This document shows, one piece after another, positions 1 through 6,915 of a stretch of 24,198 nt of DNA (positions are counted from its first letter, which is position 1; every line of letters starts with the position of its first letter). A program made the position numbers and the translations under genes. The stretch is from a virus. The DNA is taken from positions 1 through 24,198 of IMG/VR virus record IMGVR_UViG_3300009447_000373; one strand, given 5' to 3'. The notes below the pieces were generated by a model, which did no database searches, had not been told where the DNA came from, and saw only the letters and a program-made list of their open reading frames with translations.

Positions 1-382
1 CATTACCTAGTTCGGCATTTACATAATTAGAATTGCCATTTTGTTCAATATCAATAACACAATTATTACCATGGCAATCTAATCTTGCTGAGTTGTTATC
101 GCCTGTTTGCGAGACATTGTTTATTCCATTACCAGAACTCATCCATACACGCACTTGATTAGTGTCACCTGTTTGTGTATATGTAGTGCTTGTGTTATTA
201 CCACTTACTTGAGCTTTACTTGAATTTCCACCCAAACCAGTTATCTTGTTGTTAGCACCATCTTGAATAATAGTCATGTCTGTATTATCACCAACTTGCC
301 TCACATAAACCTCATTTGCCCAACAGTTACTGCTGGATAATGTTGATGCTATTATTAGTGCTTTCGCCCAACTTATATCCAT
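1..382 (-). CDS. Curlin-repeat protein, second copy (partial, runs off the left edge)
   Basis: An open frame starts with ATG at 382 and runs without a stop to base 1, giving at least 127 residues; the C-terminus lies outside the window. The first ~24 residues form a signal peptide (K6, hydrophobic ALIIASTL, ending near CWA-NE). The mature part has curlin-type repeats in which a Gln-x-Gly-Asp/Asn-x-Asn core recurs: QVGDN, QDGANN, QTGDTNQV, QTGDNN, QNGNSN. This matches the Q-x-G-x-x-N spacing of CsgA/CsgB amyloid repeats, which stack into a beta-solenoid. Two Cys (DCHGNNC) are unusual for a curlin. A GGGAG lies just upstream of the ATG. The start is inside the preceding FecR gene (56-base overlap in another frame), suggesting coupled translation. 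The amyloid role is inferred from repeat pattern and neighbours; whether it is a major or minor subunit cannot be told. Confidence 0.8.
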   Translation of the reverse strand, partial: MDISWAKALIIASTLSSSNCWANEVYVRQVGDNTDMTIIQDGANNKITGLGGNSSKAQVSGNNTSTTYTQTGDTNQVRVWMSSGNGINNVSQTGDNNSARLDCHGNNCVIDIEQNGNSNYVNAELGN

Positions 383-1451
383 AAATCTCCCAGTCCCCCT
401 GTTTGAGGTCTATAGTATAACCATAACCCTGATTTAATCTTAACTGCACAAAGTTTCCTTCATTATCATCTCTCCGCGAGAATACCCAATTAGGAGTTTC
501 GTTTAGTAGACCTATTCCTGTTAGTGGATCATAACCATATATATTTGCTTCTCTTTTTAGTAATAATGCATTTTGCATTGCTAGTTCATCTTGAAAGAAA
601 GCCATGAGTGCAGTATTAAGTTGATCTAGCATATCATATAATAAATCTTGTAATAGATTATCTGTTTCACTTAATGTTGTAATCCATATGCCTTCGATAG
701 AGTCAACTAGTGCATCATAATCAAGACCTTCATATTGTAAAAAATCTAATCCAAGAAAATCTGCGTCTGCTTGTTTTCTTTTTATTATCTGAGCTTCTTC
801 TACATAATAAGGATTCTTTTTGCGTAGTATCAATAATGAGTTTATCATTGATTCATCTAAGTCTAATAGTAAAGGTTTTGTGGGAGGAGACATTGAATTT
901 GAAGCAATGGTTGCTTGGAAGGCTTGATTGAGAATTACAAAACCAGCGTCTGTCTCTACTCTTATCTCTCCTGTATAACACATACCAGATGTATCACAAC
1001 TTGGTAATAGAGTTATCATACTTCCGCCAGCTTCGTCTATAACCATAACAAAGTCTGTACCACGTACACCAATAGTTGCAGATGGTGTTCTTATTCTAAC
1101 TCGTTGTCTACTATTCTTTGCTATCTGACCAGATGCATATCTTACAGTACCAAGACTAGCTTTAAGCCCTAATGAACCTGTACCAGTGTTTGGATCATAC
1201 ACAAAGTCATCTATAACTAACCGTGAATGTTTAGTTATATCAACCCGTGTATCGTCAATGAAATCAATACGCATAGAACTGTTGGTAGTGATAGCAGTAT
1301 CCAGCATTTCAATACCGACGCCGTTATCAACAGGAATTGAATCATTGTTTCTTTCAATTGCAGCATCACCCGAACCCTTAAATTGTGTAACCTCTCCGAT
1401 ATTAGCATATGTCGGAGAGGCTATAAATAATAATAATAAAAGCCTAATCAT
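327..1451 (-). CDS. Exported FecR-domain protein
   Basis: 374 residues. Residues 1-16 are a short signal peptide ending at TYA. Residues ~45-150 match a FecR domain: a beta-rich stretch with DDTRVDITKHSRLVIDDF, then GSLGLKASLGTVRY and the characteristic RTPSATIGVRGTDF (121-134). FecR domains usually sit in the periplasm or at the surface; classical FecR couples an outer-membrane transporter to a sigma factor, but no FecI-type sigma factor is here. The ~220-residue C-terminal half is unassigned, rich in Leu, Asp and Asn, and perhaps partly helical. Its ATG overlaps the stop of the upstream curlin gene (TAATG), and its 3' end overlaps the second curlin gene, so it is embedded between two curlin-like genes. 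A structural or assembly role in the curli block is more likely than signalling, but this is inference. Confidence 0.8.
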   Translation of the reverse strand: MIRLLLLLFIASPTYANIGEVTQFKGSGDAAIERNNDSIPVDNGVGIEMLDTAITTNSSMRIDFIDDTRVDITKHSRLVIDDFVYDPNTGTGSLGLKASLGTVRYASGQIAKNSRQRVRIRTPSATIGVRGTDFVMVIDEAGGSMITLLPSCDTSGMCYTGEIRVETDAGFVILNQAFQATIASNSMSPPTKPLLLDLDESMINSLLILRKKNPYYVEEAQIIKRKQADADFLGLDFLQYEGLDYDALVDSIEGIWITTLSETDNLLQDLLYDMLDQLNTALMAFFQDELAMQNALLLKREANIYGYDPLTGIGLLNETPNWVFSRRDDNEGNFVQLRLNQGYGYTIDLKQGDWEIYGYKLGESTNNSINIIQQ

Positions 1452-2185
1452 TAGTCGGACTGTGTAATATTAATATTTTGATTATCACCACTTGTGGTTA
1501 AGTCTATTGTATTATCATATATGCCGCTTTGATCAAACTTAACTGTATGGCCTCTACCTGTAGCATCAAAGTTAATTGTATGGCCGTTAAGATCACCATT
1601 GCCGGTAACATCAATATCCAATGTACTATCAATTGTTTCTAAGCTAGTGCTTCCATCAATAACAACTGTGATATCAGCACTCGTACCATTTACATCTGTA
1701 GTGATAATATTATCATCATCAGTAATAGTAAAGTTAATGGTAGCAGAACCAGCATCTGTTGTTTCACCAATATTGATTGTGTAATCTTGATTATCACCAG
1801 TTGCTGCAATGTTTAAAGTCACGTTACCACAGTTAGCTGCAGCAGTGCTAGAACATAGTAAATCAACTTCATTATTATCACCAGTGAATGTCCAAGTACC
1901 TGTGTAAGTGCTACCTAATATTTGAGCAGTGATTTTGTTCTGATTACCAGTTTGAGTTATGCTGAACGTCATATTGTCAGATGCATTACCCGCAGAACCT
2001 AATATCGCATCTTGATTACCCATGCCAGGAGATGTACCAATACTATTGTTTTGGCCATCTTGCACAATATCTAAGTCAAGTGTATCACCAACTTGCTGAA
2101 TATATATGTCGTTTGCGTTCATCACTGTTACTGGTACTACCATAAGAGCAGTACCTATAATGATAGTCTTTGTAAGATTTCTCAT
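1451..2185 (-). CDS. Curlin-repeat (CsgA/CsgB-like) secreted amyloid candidate
   Basis: 244 residues. Residues 1-24 form a signal peptide (TKTIIIGTALMVVPVTVMNA-ND). The mature protein is Asn/Asp/Gly/Thr rich, nearly Lys/Arg-free and organised as roughly eight to ten degenerate strand-turn repeats with curlin spacing: IQQVGDT, IVQDGQNN, ITQTGNQN, FTGDNNE, AATGDNQD, VTGNGD, FDQSGIYDN, TSGDNQNINITQ. Glutamines and asparagines recur at curlin core positions, while many repeats have lost the Q, so it is diverged from enteric CsgA. Two Cys lie near residues 111-119. An AAGGA lies 8 bases before ATG 2185, and the gene begins 11 bases after the csgG stop. Placed directly after csgF-csgG, the natural inference is that it is cargo of the CsgG pore. 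Amyloid formation is not shown by sequence alone. Confidence 0.82.
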   Translation of the reverse strand: MRNLTKTIIIGTALMVVPVTVMNANDIYIQQVGDTLDLDIVQDGQNNSIGTSPGMGNQDAILGSAGNASDNMTFSITQTGNQNKITAQILGSTYTGTWTFTGDNNEVDLLCSSTAAANCGNVTLNIAATGDNQDYTINIGETTDAGSATINFTITDDDNIITTDVNGTSADITVVIDGSTSLETIDSTLDIDVTGNGDLNGHTINFDATGRGHTVKFDQSGIYDNTIDLTTSGDNQNINITQSD

Positions 2186-2196
2186 GTGTCTTTCCT

Positions 2197-3003
2197 TTAT
2201 CCGCCGTTCTTAGGATCCTCTAAGAATGTCCAGAATTGTTTTGATTCTCCTTCATTAATCAATTCAATAACGCCAGCTTCAATTGCTGATCTAACTGCAT
2301 AATTAACTGGCTCATTCACGCTGTAGCCAGTTTCTGCTTCTATAAGTTTAGTGCCCATATCTAAAAATCTAAATACATCAGCACCGCTTCTATGACTTGC
2401 TATGGTCTTTTCTGTGGCAACACTTAGTAATACTTTACCTGTACTGACACTTACTAACCGCATAACAACAGTCACTGTATCGACTCTATAATCCATCTGA
2501 GCACCAATGCCCAAATACCTAGCTCCAGTTCCGCCTGTTGCAACACTTGAGTCGTATCCTACTATTCCACCTTCTAATATTAAACCTGCAAATACCATAG
2601 GCTTTAAAGGTGTAGGACCTTTAGCCAATTTCTTTTCATATATTTCTCTGGTATTTCTAACCAATTGTCTTTCTTTAACTAGATTATCTAAACCTACTCT
2701 TTCAACTACCTCAAACCATGTACCATATCCAACATCTTGTAGTGCCTTTATTACCCATACTTCGCCGCCTTGTGTAACAGCACTACTAAGATTAGAAGTG
2801 GTATCACTTGGTTTTCTCTGACCAGTCTTATCAGTAAAACCATATACAGCAATTGTCATCTTCTTACCATCCAACTGCTTATAGTTGGATATATCATTAG
2901 GCGAAACTTGAACAATAGGCTTTGCTTTCATCGGCGCAACTAAGTTAGGATCAGTACAGCCTGATAGTAATAATATAATTGCGGCAAGTAAAGAGTATTT
3001 CAT
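2197..3003 (-). CDS. csgG: CsgG-like curli secretion channel lipoprotein
   Basis: 268 residues. The N-terminus is a lipoprotein signal with lipobox LSGC (Cys16). In Escherichia coli CsgG is a nonameric outer-membrane lipoprotein whose 36-strand barrel exports curlin subunits. Family features are clear along the whole length: IAVYGFTDKTGQRKP (51-65), LKxxxVFAGLILEGGIVGYDSSVATGGTGARYLGIGA (133-168, first transmembrane hairpin), RLVSVSTGKVLLSVATEKTI (182-201), VFRFLD (210-215) and NEPVNYAVRSAIEAGVIELI (230-249). Length is close to E. coli CsgG (277). The constriction loop differs: by alignment from memory the enteric Tyr51 and Phe56 correspond to Ser66 and Leu72 here, with one extra residue. Its ATG overlaps the csgF stop (TAATG), so the two are probably translationally coupled. 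Function as a pore is well supported by homology; its substrate is inferred from neighbours. Confidence 0.93.
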   Translation of the reverse strand: MKYSLLAAIILLLSGCTDPNLVAPMKAKPIVQVSPNDISNYKQLDGKKMTIAVYGFTDKTGQRKPSDTTSNLSSAVTQGGEVWVIKALQDVGYGTWFEVVERVGLDNLVKERQLVRNTREIYEKKLAKGPTPLKPMVFAGLILEGGIVGYDSSVATGGTGARYLGIGAQMDYRVDTVTVVMRLVSVSTGKVLLSVATEKTIASHRSGADVFRFLDMGTKLIEAETGYSVNEPVNYAVRSAIEAGVIELINEGESKQFWTFLEDPKNGG

Positions 3004-3470
3004 TAGAAGTTAAATTCCCCTTCACCCGGAATGGTTATGGTAGTAGTACCATCATCATTTGCTATTGTTAATGTAATCTCACCAGATATAGGATCTTTAG
3101 TCCATTCTATAGTGCTGCCTTCAATTTCAGTAGTACCCGTTGTTGGACAAGTATTACCAGTGCAATCCGTAAACATACTATCAACCATTTGTTTACTTAG
3201 TGTTGCATAAATTCTTGATTCAAGGTTTTTAATAAACTTATTAAGTGTTGTGTTTTCTAGTTCTCTTTCTATTCTTCTTGCTTCTGACTCAGCTTTATCT
3301 TTACGATCCTGTGTTCGGTTATACTGTAACTGTTCTGTACTTAGAACATGACTAGAATACCCATTTCCACTAAATGATGGATTCTTAAATCTAAAACCTA
3401 ATTCAGCATTACTTTGTGTTGGGAGTAACACCAAAAGAATTAGGCTCAAGCTCAACTTTTTTATCTTCAT
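3003..3470 (-). CDS. csgF: CsgF-like curli pore accessory protein
   Basis: 155 residues from ATG 3470, chosen because it gives a clean signal peptide (MKIKKLSLSLILLVLLPTQS, cleavage after NA) and has AGGTG about 7 bases upstream; a start at 3521 would put a charged extension before it. The mature N-terminus ELGFRFKNPSFSGN aligns with the CsgF segment (FQFRNPNFGGN in E. coli) that plugs into the CsgG barrel and forms a second constriction. A charged helical region follows (about residues 45-85), then a C-terminal beta domain containing a CTGNTC pair and GEITLTIANDDGTTTITIPG, comparable to the C-terminal domain of CsgF. It is slightly longer than E. coli CsgF (138). It overlaps the preceding membrane-protein gene by 62 bases and the csgG start by one base. 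Confidence 0.88.
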   Translation of the reverse strand: MKIKKLSLSLILLVLLPTQSNAELGFRFKNPSFSGNGYSSHVLSTEQLQYNRTQDRKDKAESEARRIERELENTTLNKFIKNLESRIYATLSKQMVDSMFTDCTGNTCPTTGTTEIEGSTIEWTKDPISGEITLTIANDDGTTTITIPGEGEFNF

Positions 3471-3759
3471 CTTTAACACCTGTCGAATTAAATGTTTCAC
3501 TTTTACTTTGAAATTCAGCAACTTCTTTATTCATTCCTCTATGCTCTAGGACCATGGAAAGTTTACTGTTTAATCTAATCATATCATTATCAAGCATTCT
3601 GATTCTATCAACTAACTTAATTAATGTCATCATTGTCTCACCAATGACTGGATCAATTGTTTCTGTAACCCATTTCCATATAAAGAAAATAAAATAGCCC
3701 ATACCAACAGCAGACACAATAGGAAATCCGTAATCTGTTATTGCTTTGGTTATATCCAT
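3409..3759 (-). CDS. Small one-TM coiled-coil membrane protein, copy 2 (holin-like)
   Basis: 116 residues. It starts MDITKAITDYGFPI, has one hydrophobic helix (about 12-31, GFPIVSAVGMGYFIFFIWKW) and then an amphipathic, probably coiled-coil region with a polar charged tail (EDKKVELEP). It is a paralogue of the gene just upstream: both show MDI-x-x-x-I-x-D-x-GFPI at the N-terminus, a Gly-rich helix, and later a Leu-Asp/Asn rich segment. The layout (very short N-terminus, one TM, cytoplasmic helical tail) resembles BhlA/UviB-type holins, which is a resemblance of architecture only. AGGAG precedes the ATG, one base after the preceding stop. The 3' end overlaps csgF, tying it to the curli block. 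Function unknown; a holin or an inner-membrane partner of the secretion system are both possible. Confidence 0.72.
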   Translation of the reverse strand: MDITKAITDYGFPIVSAVGMGYFIFFIWKWVTETIDPVIGETMMTLIKLVDRIRMLDNDMIRLNSKLSMVLEHRGMNKEVAEFQSKSETFNSTGVKDEDKKVELEPNSFGVTPNTK

Positions 3760-3760
3760 T

Positions 3761-4039
3761 CTAATCTCTCCTTGCGTCTTCCTTACCTTCGTTGGCTGCT
3801 ATTCGATCAATGTTTGGTTTAACATTAAGAGCATAACTAAGTAAAGCATCAATTTTCACTAAATCATTATTCATTGTTTGTACCCTATTATCAAGGGATC
3901 CAATTATATTCTTTAAAGTTGTCACTGAATCAGTAACACTAGCTAAAATAAACTTTAGTGTAATAAAAACAAATACACCAGCTGCAATAGCACCACCAAT
4001 AGGAAAGCCAACATCTCCTATCAAATCTAATATATCCAT
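3761..4039 (-). CDS. Small one-TM coiled-coil membrane protein, copy 1 (holin-like)
   Basis: 92 residues. MDILDLIGDVGFPI is followed by one TM helix (about 10-32, GGAIAAGVFVFITLKFI), then a helical region with heptad-like hydrophobics (SVTTLKNIIGSLDNRVQTMN, then LVKIDALLSYAL) and a charged C-terminus (EGKEDARRD). It is the first gene behind the late-type promoter and its product is paralogous to the next gene product, so the pair looks like a tandem duplication that has since diverged. AAAGG precedes the ATG. One-TM proteins with this layout are common as phage holins, and an exported cell-wall hydrolase is encoded 1.5 kb upstream, but no family could be assigned with certainty. It may alternatively act with CsgG/CsgF. 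Confidence 0.72.
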   Translation of the reverse strand: MDILDLIGDVGFPIGGAIAAGVFVFITLKFILASVTDSVTTLKNIIGSLDNRVQTMNNDLVKIDALLSYALNVKPNIDRIAANEGKEDARRD

Positions 4040-4064
4040 ATCAAACCTTTCATATTTACTGTAC

Positions 4065-4072
4065 TATTTATA
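4065..4072 (-). promoter_or_regulatory. T4-type late promoter box for the curli block
   Basis: The minus strand reads TATAAATA, identical to the T4 late -10 box recognised through gp55 with the gp45 clamp. It lies 26 bases upstream of the first gene of the block (ATG 4039) and directly after a terminator hairpin, an arrangement that isolates the block from upstream transcription. The motif is short and AT-rich, so position rather than sequence alone gives it weight. No other minus-strand TATAAATA was noticed in the window. Confidence 0.65.
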
Positions 4073-4074
4073 AC

Positions 4075-4100
4075 AAAAGAGGAGCTAACCATGGCTCCTC
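4075..4100 (-). terminator. Rho-independent terminator after the small outer-membrane protein gene
   Basis: On the minus strand GAGGAGC (4100-4094) pairs perfectly with GCTCCTC (4085-4079) across a short loop, and TTTTGTTA follows. It lies 46 bases past the stop of the 4146-4514 gene and just before the late promoter box. Confidence 0.75.
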
Positions 4101-4145
4101 ACGTGCTTATTAAGTAAGCAACCCTATAACAATTTTAACTTTATA

Positions 4146-4514
4146 TTAGAAGTTGAATGTAGCGCCCATTGTCACATCACCAAATTCTAGGTCTGAGTTT
4201 GTACCAACTTCGGTGTAAGCGCGAAGCCCACCACCAATAGTATAACCAGCAGCAAAGTCAAGGCCAGTAAATGATTCTTTAGAAGCATCATTCAAAGACA
4301 TAACATCAAGTGTTGTGTCCACTGAGAAGTCCACACCAAAGGCATTAAGACCGGCTTTAGGAGTAAAATCCAATGCCCATAGTTCTGTGCCAGTTGTATA
4401 GTTCATATCAAGCTCGCCGCCAGCTGAGATGGTTTGACCACCAACATCTAGGTCTGCTGCTGATACTGTAGATGCCAACATAGTCATGGCAATTGCAATT
4501 GTAGTTATCTTCAT
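4146..4514 (-). CDS. Tiny outer-membrane beta-barrel-like protein
   Basis: 122 residues. Residues 1-19 are a signal peptide (KITTIAIAMTMLASTVSA-AD). The mature ~103 residues alternate polar and hydrophobic positions with many Gly and aromatic residues (GLDFAAGYTIGGGLRAYTEV, then FGDVTMGATFNF) and end in Phe, the classic C-terminal signal read by the BAM complex for outer-membrane insertion. At this size it could supply only about six to eight strands, much smaller than a porin, so it may be a small barrel or oligomerise. AGGA precedes ATG 4514. It sits between the phage tmRNA and its own terminator, separate from the curli block. Receptor masking, superinfection exclusion or permeability change are possible roles, all inference. 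Confidence 0.72.
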   Translation of the reverse strand: MKITTIAIAMTMLASTVSAADLDVGGQTISAGGELDMNYTTGTELWALDFTPKAGLNAFGVDFSVDTTLDVMSLNDASKESFTGLDFAAGYTIGGGLRAYTEVGTNSDLEFGDVTMGATFNF

Positions 4515-4554
4515 AGTTTTTTCCTATTCATAGAATGTTAATAATAATAAAAGT

Positions 4555-4582
4555 GCCACTTTTCTGTTGCTAGGTAAGTGGC
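4555..4582 (-). terminator. Hairpin at the 3' end of the tmRNA coding piece
   Basis: GCCACTT (4582-4576) pairs perfectly with AAGTGGC (4561-4555) over a 14-base loop and is followed by ACTTTTATTATTATT. It may be the post-tag helix of the mature RNA, the transcription end, or both. The T run is interrupted, so termination may be partial and the small outer-membrane protein gene could be read through. Confidence 0.55.
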
Positions 4583-4594
4583 CAACCCCCTGTG

Positions 4595-4639
4595 TTATGC
4601 CGCTAGGGCGTAACCAGATGGTGCGAAATTTTCATTTGC
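4595..4639 (-). other. tmRNA tag reading frame (ANENFAPSGYALAA)
   Basis: Resume codon GCA at 4639-4637, then codons for ANENFAPSGYALAA and stop TAA at 4597-4595. With the alanine carried by the tmRNA the added tag would be AANENFAPSGYALAA. It starts with the usual Ala-Asn and ends in ALAA, as in tags that direct proteins to ClpXP-type proteases. Confidence 0.92.
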
Positions 4640-4931
4640 ATTTAGTTTATTGATCTATACGCGATCATCCGGTAAACTCCACTTCACTACGACACCTGTC
4701 GATCCTAAAATATCAGCCCCATCAAAAACACACTACGGTTGCAACCTACTCCTGTTATTGATCAAATCCGCCAAGGAGTCACGGACATAATGTGTTTATG
4801 GTGGAGCTGTCGGGATTTGCACCCGAGTCCAGTATGCGTTCACGTTGCTTCAACGTTTACTAATTATATAGTATATAAAAGGCTAAAAATGCTAATCATA
4901 TATTATTTAATATTTTAGTGTCTCTTTTATG

Positions 4932-5501
4932 TTACACTGCTACTCCCATAATATCTCCTTGACCCCAGAGATGTTGATCCCAATCTTTTAATTGAGAATG
5001 TAGTTGATTCATTAGAACCTTTGTATTGAATTCTAAACTTTCAAGAGTACGATTATTGTCAATAGTATAGTCGGTCATCCATTGTTCAATACTCATACTA
5101 TCTTTTGCTTCAGGAGGTAGATGATCTGATCTATCAACCCAAATAGCATAATCAAATACACCAGAGTTTTTCATAGCAAAGAATTCTGCTTTATTTCTGA
5201 GGCCACAATAGATGTCATACTCATGAAACATTTCACGACCTAGTGTAGCGGGGTCTTCTGCATTATATTCACATATGGCATCATACCATTCTGCTCTATG
5301 ATTATGCCTATCAGTATAACATTCTTCCTCTAATTTATATCCATACTTATCTTTTAAATTATTAAAGATAAATTTCTTTGAGCAAAACTGACTACTACTC
5401 TCAAATGAGTAACCCATATTATCCCTTAGTATTTCACAAACAGTATCTTTCCCGTGTCTGCCATGACCTACAACAAGTAATTTTAATCTTTTCTTTTTCA
5501 T
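4932..5501 (-). CDS. dNMP kinase-like P-loop protein
   Basis: 189 residues from ATG 5501; a TTG 33 bases upstream would extend into the preceding gene and is less likely. Residues 2-7 are basic (KKKRLK), then LLVVGHGRHGKDTVCEIL carries a P-loop of the G-x4-GKDT type found in phage deoxynucleoside monophosphate kinases (T4 gp1 has GVKRSGKDT). Downstream are a conserved-looking REMFHEYDIYCGLRNKAEF stretch (the lid/base region) and AIWVDRSD, which resembles the family's strand before the base-recognition loop. Such enzymes phosphorylate dNMPs to feed phage DNA synthesis. It starts one base after the stop of the cell-wall hydrolase gene and is the last protein gene before the tmRNA. The specific substrate cannot be read from sequence. 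Confidence 0.7.
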   Translation of the reverse strand: MKKKRLKLLVVGHGRHGKDTVCEILRDNMGYSFESSSQFCSKKFIFNNLKDKYGYKLEEECYTDRHNHRAEWYDAICEYNAEDPATLGREMFHEYDIYCGLRNKAEFFAMKNSGVFDYAIWVDRSDHLPPEAKDSMSIEQWMTDYTIDNNRTLESLEFNTKVLMNQLHSQLKDWDQHLWGQGDIMGVAV

Positions 5502-5502
5502 A

Positions 5503-5964
5503 TCATTTCGCTTTGTAAAAAATGTGAGTGCCAATTTCGGCAGTCTTAATCATAAATTCTTCCTTAGCCCAGAAAGGATTTACATAGTCGGCATGGTAGT
5601 GATCTGCTCCACCAGTATTATCATTAGATTTATTAGACATAACTTCTATAGCAATAGCATATGCTAGTTTATATGCTTTTTTATCATCTGGAGTAGTATC
5701 ATCAAGTGTCCATGTCCAGCTGAATTGTTTATTAGCATATACAACATCACATATATTATCTGCATGTTTTGAACTAGCAACTCTATTCATTGTTACGTGA
5801 GCAACAGCATACTGTCCATCAATAGTTTGATTTCTTGCTTCATGATAAACATTTAAAGCAAGACACTCTTTAGCTTCTGCTCTTTCACCATTAAATATGC
5901 TAATACAAGAACCTAGACCAAGTAACATTGCTAATGTAAATGCGCCGGATAAGATATTTTTCAT
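5503..5964 (-). CDS. Exported SleB-type cell-wall hydrolase (probable endolysin)
   Basis: 153 residues from ATG 5964 (a GTG lies 6 bases further upstream). The N-terminus is a signal sequence (ILSGAFTLAMLLGLGSCISI); LGSC at 17-20 is lipobox-like, while cleavage after ERAEA is an alternative. The rest is a Hydrolase_2/SleB domain: ECLALNVYHEARNQ with the presumed catalytic Glu42, GQYAVAHVTMNRV, KQFSWT and ADHYHADYVNPFWA. The family cleaves peptidoglycan as a lytic transglycosylase or amidase. A signal sequence on a phage hydrolase implies export by the host Sec system rather than release through a large holin. It has its own promoter (5998-6026) and is followed at once by the dNMP kinase-like gene. 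Confidence 0.88.
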   Translation of the reverse strand: MKNILSGAFTLAMLLGLGSCISIFNGERAEAKECLALNVYHEARNQTIDGQYAVAHVTMNRVASSKHADNICDVVYANKQFSWTWTLDDTTPDDKKAYKLAYAIAIEVMSNKSNDNTGGADHYHADYVNPFWAKEEFMIKTAEIGTHIFYKAK

Positions 5965-5997
5965 ATTCACTACTCGTTTATTATGTCTGTTGATATT

Positions 5998-6026
5998 ATA
6001 TTAGCACATATAATATCAGATGTAAA
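5998..6026 (-). promoter_or_regulatory. Sigma70-type promoter upstream of the cell-wall hydrolase
   Basis: TTTACA (6026-6021), 17 bp spacer ending in TGTGC, then TAATAT (6003-5998). The -35 and spacer match the other promoters in the window, and the -10 is a variant. Confidence 0.6.
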
Positions 6027-6044
6027 GCATTATTTTAACTTTTT

Positions 6045-6248
6045 TTAAAGTTTTTTTATACCTAAAGACCAGTTTTCAGCTGCATCTTCAACATATCTAA
6101 TAGAGTTATTAGGAAAATCTTCAGTATCAAATAGTTCATCATTATTATCAAAGTATTTTATATAAGCTCTTTCATTCTTATAATCAAAATGAACTTCAGC
6201 TTTACCCTTATTGTCTTTAGAATAATATGTATTTAATTTACAGCCCAT
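6045..6248 (-). CDS. Small hypothetical protein
   Basis: 67 residues, not recognised. It is polar and acidic with many aromatic residues (HFDYKNERAYIKYFDNND) and a C-terminal segment RYVEDAAENWSLGIKKL, a short helix that looks like those ending other small T4-like phage proteins. No signal peptide or membrane segment. The ATG overlaps the thyX stop by 11 bases in another frame, so it is probably co-translated with thyX. The gene ends in an A/T-rich stretch and is followed by the hydrolase promoter. Confidence 0.65.
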   Translation of the reverse strand: MGCKLNTYYSKDNKGKAEVHFDYKNERAYIKYFDNNDELFDTEDFPNNSIRYVEDAAENWSLGIKKL

Positions 6249-6915
6249 CTGCTATAAACTCCTTTGTCATTGGAAATATGGTTGAAATATTTAGAGCAAT
6301 CTCACGTGCTAATTCTATATGTTCAAGTTGTGTTCCATTACCAGTTCTTAATTCAATGTAGTGTATCCATGATCTTAAGGTTGCATTAGCAAACAAACGT
6401 GATACTGTATTACCTTCTGGCAATACCGAACGTGCTTGTTCTTTAGCAATACCATTTTGAATTGCCCAGTTATAAGCTAACTTTGCTTCATGAATAATTT
6501 GGTGTTGTTTCATTCTCCATGCTCTTGCCAGTTCTCTATCTGTACTTGGAATAGAATTCTGTCTATTCTTAGTATCTTGCATACGTGCTTCACGAACAAC
6601 AAATGCTTCATCTTGATCTTGAGGATCTGCATACCTTTGACTGAATTCTTGAAAAGACATTGAGCGGTGCCGTAATAACTGCCTAGCAATATCACGTGTA
6701 GTTTCTATACCTAAGGTACAAGATACCATTTCCAATGGAGACCAATGTTTATGTTTGATAAGGTATCTAATAAGTTTCTCGGCAGTTTTAGTGTTCATCT
6801 CATTAGCAGGATTAGATACACGTGCACAATAACTAATAATATCTTGTGCATCTTTTAATCCACCTGCTAACAATTCACCTGATGGTTGAGGTGTTACTAC
6901 AGTCCATACTCTCAT
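6238..6915 (-). CDS. thyX: Flavin-dependent thymidylate synthase
   Basis: 225 residues. The ThyX signature is present as RHRSMSFQEFSQRY (82-95), with Gln in place of the more usual Asn before the Glu. ARVSNP (31-36) and NTKTAEKLIRYLIKHKHWSPLEM (41-63) match the N-terminal substrate and FAD region, and NATLRSWIHYIELR the C-terminal region with catalytic Ser/Arg. ThyX methylates dUMP to dTMP using methylene-tetrahydrofolate, NADPH and FAD. It sits four bases after gp41 and supplies thymidylate for an AT-rich phage genome. Many marine T4-like phages carry thyX rather than the T4 td gene. Confidence 0.96.
   Translation of the reverse strand: MRVWTVVTPQPSGELLAGGLKDAQDIISYCARVSNPANEMNTKTAEKLIRYLIKHKHWSPLEMVSCTLGIETTRDIARQLLRHRSMSFQEFSQRYADPQDQDEAFVVREARMQDTKNRQNSIPSTDRELARAWRMKQHQIIHEAKLAYNWAIQNGIAKEQARSVLPEGNTVSRLFANATLRSWIHYIELRTGNGTQLEHIELAREIALNISTIFPMTKEFIADGL

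Follow-up and report, generated by a model that had tools for sequence, protein, structure and literature searches.

The spacer of the two-piece tmRNA gene in marine T4-like phages is, in all likelihood, an exchangeable slot for nested small protein genes, which are swapped at the ends of the mature RNAs and in some cases give stopless messages; the virus sequence analysed here would hold a gene-free allele. The window, by which we mean the whole 24,198-base stretch, carries what is very probably a functional phage copy of an alphaproteobacterial-type two-piece tmRNA, supplementing host trans-translation with host SmpB and serving, in its spacer, as a site of exchange.

A two-piece tmRNA in the window

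A complete circularly permuted (two-piece) tmRNA lies on the minus strand of the window at about 4861-4552, recognized by two Rfam models and by ARAGORN. RF04321 (tmRNA_permuted) matches 4861-4595 (−) with 95.6 bits (cut-off 47), covering model positions 1-213 end to end, and RF01849 (alpha_tmRNA) matches 4914-4552 (−) with 85.6 bits (cut-off 50), covering model positions 1-355 at full length. The permuted tmRNA called by ARAGORN spans 4893-4504 (−) and has the tag ANENFAPSGYALAA. The E-values of the two Rfam matches (1.1e-17 and 3.6e-22), together with compensatory changes in the T-stem, spacer stem and 3′ pseudoknot, rule out a chance match. A sequence-only reading had proposed a phage-encoded, permuted two-piece tmRNA of alphaproteobacterial type, to be checked by a covariance search with permuted tmRNA models; that search matched both pieces end to end, all three methods agree, and phage genes flank the locus. 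The reading placed the gene correctly at 4555-4860, although the strand is minus throughout, the coding piece extends to about 4552 and the spacer occupies 4721-4798. The gene has the following parts.

4799..4868 (−): acceptor piece, the first part of the gene, with the 5′ arm, GGAC; its 5′ end is approximate
4810-4826 (−): T-arm of the acceptor piece, with a T-stem that covaries across relatives
4803-4809 (−): acceptor strand CAGCTCC, followed by A73 at 4802 and an encoded CCA at 4799-4801
4721..4798 (−): spacer (intervening segment), 78 nt, predicted to be removed on maturation
4552..4720 (−): coding piece, with the GGGGCUG acceptor 5′ strand, the tag frame and the 3′ pseudoknot; the RF01849 match reaches 4552
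4595..4639 (−): tag reading frame from the resume codon GCA to TAA, encoding ANENFAPSGYALAA (ARAGORN)
4555..4587 (−): H-type pseudoknot 3′ of the tag, pairing GGU 4585-4587 with ACC 4573-4575 and GCCACUU 4576-4582 with AAGUGGC 4555-4561

The acceptor piece stands ahead of the coding piece within a single gene. GGGGCUG and CAGCUCC form an acceptor stem of seven pairs that includes G3-U70, and with the A73 discriminator and CCA this gives the molecule alanine identity, bearing out the earlier view that the G3-U determinant is kept. The tag begins at an alanine codon and finishes with a hydrophobic ALAA-type end and a stop; the intact tag previously read from the sequence is the one that ARAGORN calls, and the tags of relatives are identical to it or nearly so. 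Mature ends had been expected near 4799 and 4720, and the sequence fits both (a CCA end and a GGGGCTG start). The spacer ends, AAACACA (4791-4797) and TGTGTTT (4726-4732), are complementary as had been noticed, and in the predicted fold the spacer stem extends beyond these seven end pairs.

Conserved structure in phage relatives

Among the matches listed, G3-U70 is present in 85/85 distinct phage two-piece tmRNAs. T-stem pairs 1 and 2 are unbroken throughout the 85 and take four different forms apiece, and covariation extends to the spacer stem. The parser that assembled this set demanded six of seven acceptor pairs, so acceptor pairing is partly selected; T-stem and spacer-stem pairing were not demanded. 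The mRNA-like region of the window tmRNA holds a pseudoknot that is equally well maintained: in 15 related coding pieces all 150 cells (15 sequences by 10 pairs) are paired, two-sided changes occur in six of the ten pairs, and none of 500 shuffles matched the covariation score.

These data bear on the idea that the phage tmRNA is a host ssrA captured by recombination that persists unused. Its patchy distribution would fit, with tmRNA in 17 of 47 Melnitz-related contigs (PMC9004378) and absent near csgG in most relatives that we examined. Compensatory changes across divergent phages, together with its presence in several isolates, show selection on structure, and we consider an unused passenger very improbable.

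Phage context of the tmRNA

The tmRNA lies between two groups of phage genes. On one flank are the dNMP-kinase-like gene and genes for a cell-wall hydrolase, ThyX, a DnaB-type helicase and a UvsX-like recombinase; on the other are genes for a small secreted-type protein, CsgF, CsgG, a curlin-repeat protein and a FecR-domain protein.

4932..5534 (−): dNMP-kinase-like phage gene (weak assignment; PHROG 38514, 139), directly upstream of the tmRNA
4146..4514 (−): small secreted-type protein gene of no family, directly downstream of the tmRNA and common to tmRNA-bearing relatives
3003-3521 (−): csgF (Pfam CsgF, 56.2 bits)
2197-3003 (−): csgG (Pfam CsgG, 171.6 bits)

Positions 2-3521 of the window form a curli-like cluster (curlin repeats, FecR-domain protein, CsgG and CsgF) that is also present in Melnitz and HTVC008M, and for which the authors of the Melnitz study suggested a lysis-related pore (PMC9004378). 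The window CsgG is 60% identical to that of HTVC008M and 56% to that of Melnitz. Judged by sequence, the flanking cluster is the curli-type cluster of pelagimyophages and Melnitz.

The window is the entire IMG/VR record of a metagenome virus and is possibly a fragment, which leaves room for the thought that the tmRNA comes from a piece of bacterial chromosome or from a chimeric contig. A bacterial fragment is excluded because phage genes lie on either side of the tmRNA and the locus recurs in independent contigs: L083 agrees with the window at 99.9% over 6.7 kb up to 4838, the junction is there in both L083 and L007, and the 4932..5534 gene is 100% identical in L083 and 94% in L007. A bacterial or chimeric origin thus deserves next to no credence.

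Related tmRNAs in phages and Alphaproteobacteria

Phage two-piece tmRNAs are already known from Melnitz, Mosig and HTVC008M, and the window is a further case. The OM43 phage Melnitz was reported to carry one in 2022, in a study in which two-piece forms made up 53 of 133 unique phage tmRNAs, 50 of those 53 being aquatic (PMC9004378). The Melnitz SsrA (MZ577095-MZ577098) resembles that of the window in being a permuted alphaproteobacterial-type tmRNA of a T4-like phage with a csgF/csgG/curlin/FecR cluster and thyX nearby. It differs in its tag (ANDNYVPVDYALAA versus ANENFAPSGYALAA) and in its spacer, which has 142 nt and an unannotated ORF, whereas that of the window has 78 nt and no ORF. A glutamine riboswitch is reported in the Melnitz ssrA region but none was found in the window, where a search of 3900-6300 for a glnA-type riboswitch gave no riboswitch family match up to E=1. 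Mosig EXVC030M and HTVC008M, both T4-like phages of SAR11 (Pelagibacter), likewise have permuted tmRNAs with a T-loop of the UGCAAxx kind, but their tags (GEDNFALAA and ANFNEYALAA) and spacers (43 and 49 nt, respectively) are unlike those of the window.

The layout had also been taken to point to an alphaproteobacterial host. This argument is weak: the Melnitz ssrA groups with alphaproteobacterial and SAR11 ones, and its host OM43 (Methylophilales) is neither (PMC9004378), so tmRNA layout does not fix the host. We tried two other routes to the host and accepted neither. Low-GC alphaproteobacterial genomes of about 1.2-1.3 Mb, which we do not call SAR11, gave tags such as ANESYALAA, and the best match to the DNA polymerase was phage C48C1 at 59%, with no stated host.

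The two-piece tmRNA of Alphaproteobacteria (RF01849) shares with the window its gene order, G3-U70, a tag after the resume GCA and a 3′ ACCUxGCAACAGAA element. The spacers set the two apart. Most of those sampled from Alphaproteobacteria have 2-74 nt and no ORF, apart from a few that are filled with repeats, whereas ORFs recur in long phage spacers. In the 150 matches listed from 385 alphaproteobacterial genomes, the median span matched by the model is 219 nt and 3 spans are 280 nt or more, and the two longest bacterial spacers (115 and 165 nt) hold no ORF above chance (p = 0.90 and 0.99). Bacterial matches to a coding-piece pattern come from mixed phyla and are uninformative. Permuted tmRNA spacers have been reported with one tRNA-Ala and one repetitive element (PMC11915505); like the phage spacers these carry extra sequence in the intervening segment, but it is a single RNA gene and a repeat rather than recurrent protein genes. 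We found no report of protein genes in permuted tmRNA spacers in the open literature, outside which most subscription journals lie, and I did not find repeated spacer swapping with a small protein gene in close relatives described before.

Exchange of the spacer between close relatives

The variable and most unusual part of the window tmRNA is the spacer, a point that the sequence-only reading did not make. In alignments with relatives, identity reaches the CCA end and returns within the coding piece. The contig L007 is 97.5% identical to the window over 3339 bp up to 4795, and identity is back at 4727; between these points the spacers differ, with only some 15 nt in common at the 3′ end. On a finer scale, identity is 94% in the 100 nt upstream of the T-arm and 90% in what follows TAGGATCGAC; the window and L007 also differ in the T-arm itself and in the bases that open the coding piece. 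L449, L455 and L461 share 97.7% identity with the window over the 43 nt from the T-arm to the spacer start. Because its T-arm region matches these three and its flanks match L007, the window tmRNA looks mosaic. L007, L084 and L085 have a Shine-Dalgarno-led ORF in the spacer slot; the 78-nt spacer of the window holds no Shine-Dalgarno-led ORF and no gene. As read from these alignments, the window spacer is an exchanged, gene-free allele of a locus at which near-identical relatives carry a gene.

Two further sets of spacers were observed. L008, L438 and L439 contain one spacer ORF (95-100% identical) inside very different coding pieces (170 versus 137 nt, counted to where the conserved element ends), and this comparison suggests that the spacer moves independently of the surrounding RNA. 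L154, L176, L196, L220 and L457 have ORF-less spacers of 85-86 nt (TAAATGCACT..CCTGCTGCAACAGGAAG..) whose sequence is conserved while the tmRNA flanks differ; these are possibly a structured RNA of their own.

Protein genes in the spacers

We parsed at least 103 distinct phage two-piece tmRNAs, whose spacers of 25-332 nt (median 85) fall into at least 58 clusters (an approximate count); the relatives were drawn from marine viral contigs with two coding-piece patterns that favour the GACAGGT subtype, and the frequencies are not population estimates. Among the matches listed, 14 of 21 clusters of 100 nt or more have an ORF longer than in dinucleotide-preserving shuffles (p<0.05), as do 0 of 37 clusters below 100 nt. 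The ORFs start 7-38 nt into the spacer and extend to its end or close to it. In the five families with both types of change, omega is about 0.05-0.54: 0.05-0.06 for the MSDYKDL type, 0.10 for MDxKDK, 0.22-0.24 for MWIY, 0.12-0.38 for MFKW and 0.20-0.54 for MIKW. The MKNPLIRK type has three synonymous and no nonsynonymous differences, and the MKYC type, with one difference in all, is uninformative. By these substitution patterns, the spacer ORFs of relatives are under purifying selection and have the character of coding sequence.

Several spacer ORFs resemble genes found elsewhere. That of L469 shares 59% identity with a hypothetical protein of Melnitz, QZI94817.1, whose gene is directly upstream of the Melnitz ssrA. 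Stand-alone genes match the L446/L452 type in L459 (48% identity) and the L207 type in L184 and L112 (40-43%). The L463, L160/L465 and L112 types have no homologue in the isolate phage collection. The Melnitz spacer ORF (MZ577097 46096-46203; putative product MFKWLSKTRLVVITRDYFRERNRKADAKIPKYLSGT) lies under the SsrA annotation in all four Melnitz isolate genomes, and MZ577097 lists no CDS there; its presence in isolate genomes means that it is no assembly artefact.

The spacer frame reaches the coding piece without a stop in the Melnitz, L218, L463 and L188 types. These frames, and the way in which spacer ORFs begin near the start of the spacer and fill it, would suit a gene whose tmRNA halves act as processing sites that release a short spacer mRNA, stopless in some families, with product made mainly when trans-translation is limiting (ArfA-like). 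A stop is present in many spacer ORFs, and most spacers, that of the window included, are ORF-less, which makes such an expression platform distinctly improbable as the purpose of the gene.

Two spacers are unusual in other respects. In L112 (virus record G004, about 1630-1960) a 332-nt spacer apparently holds two overlapping ORFs, one of 72 aa and then a GTG-start frame that continues into the coding piece. L317 (PBDU01000009.1, 1340-1760), binned as Euryarchaeota archaeon SP339, has a two-piece tmRNA with a 76-aa spacer ORF; the protein is identical to that of viral contig L209, and cell-wall-hydrolase and gp59-like ORFs adjoin. L317 has the look of phage DNA that was binned by mistake with an archaeal MAG.

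Proposed function

We favour a working tmRNA that supplements that of the host. Host tRNA-processing enzymes would cut the phage transcript twice, at the CCA end (4799) and where the coding piece begins (4720), giving two RNAs that would remain paired and be charged by host AlaRS via G3-U70. During infection the charged RNA, with host SmpB, would then free stalled ribosomes and tag their products for degradation, on top of the tmRNA that the host supplies and to the presumed benefit of the phage. Host SmpB would be needed: a search that detected SmpB in 10 of 14 control genomes found none in eight phage records, made up of four virus records and the complete genomes of four related isolates, and the window has no evident one. 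The earlier proposal that the phage RNA might supplement or replace host trans-translation therefore survives in its first half, as the likeliest function, while host-independent replacement is unlikely. A changed tag had been suggested too; it does differ from the tags of sampled alphaproteobacteria, but the ALAA end is kept and an altered proteolytic fate is not indicated.

A phage tmRNA could instead chiefly titrate SmpB, or otherwise inhibit host trans-translation, as a decoy. A tag-less phage form consisting of the tRNA-like part only, related to that of DS6A, is reported to inhibit tmRNA (PMC11915505; PMC4131195), and the related phages are without SmpB. We think this unlikely here, as a decoy could do without the tag frame, the resume region and the 3′ pseudoknot, all of which are intact and conserved.

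For a supplementary tmRNA, the discarded spacer would tolerate replacement. Many relatives have a small protein gene there, led by a ribosome-binding site of its own; the window has 78 nt of non-coding filler. The spacer ORFs might be read before the precursor is cut or once the spacer has been released. If the precursor were cut first, a stopless spacer message would be nonstop and its product might itself become a substrate of trans-translation, an arrangement reminiscent of arfA that we offer as speculation.

The phage tmRNA itself is one more case of a known kind, and the spacer result weighs more. Spacer genes have been missed because annotation ends at 'SsrA', as in the Melnitz records. 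The locus also bears on reported 'archaeal' tmRNAs, since at least one Euryarchaeota-MAG contig (L317) looks phage. If our reading is true, protein genes are recurrently nested inside a tmRNA gene and co-expressed from the precursor of a ribosome-rescue RNA, which would tie trans-translation to small phage proteins, some of them stopless within the spacer, in a way that can be tested.
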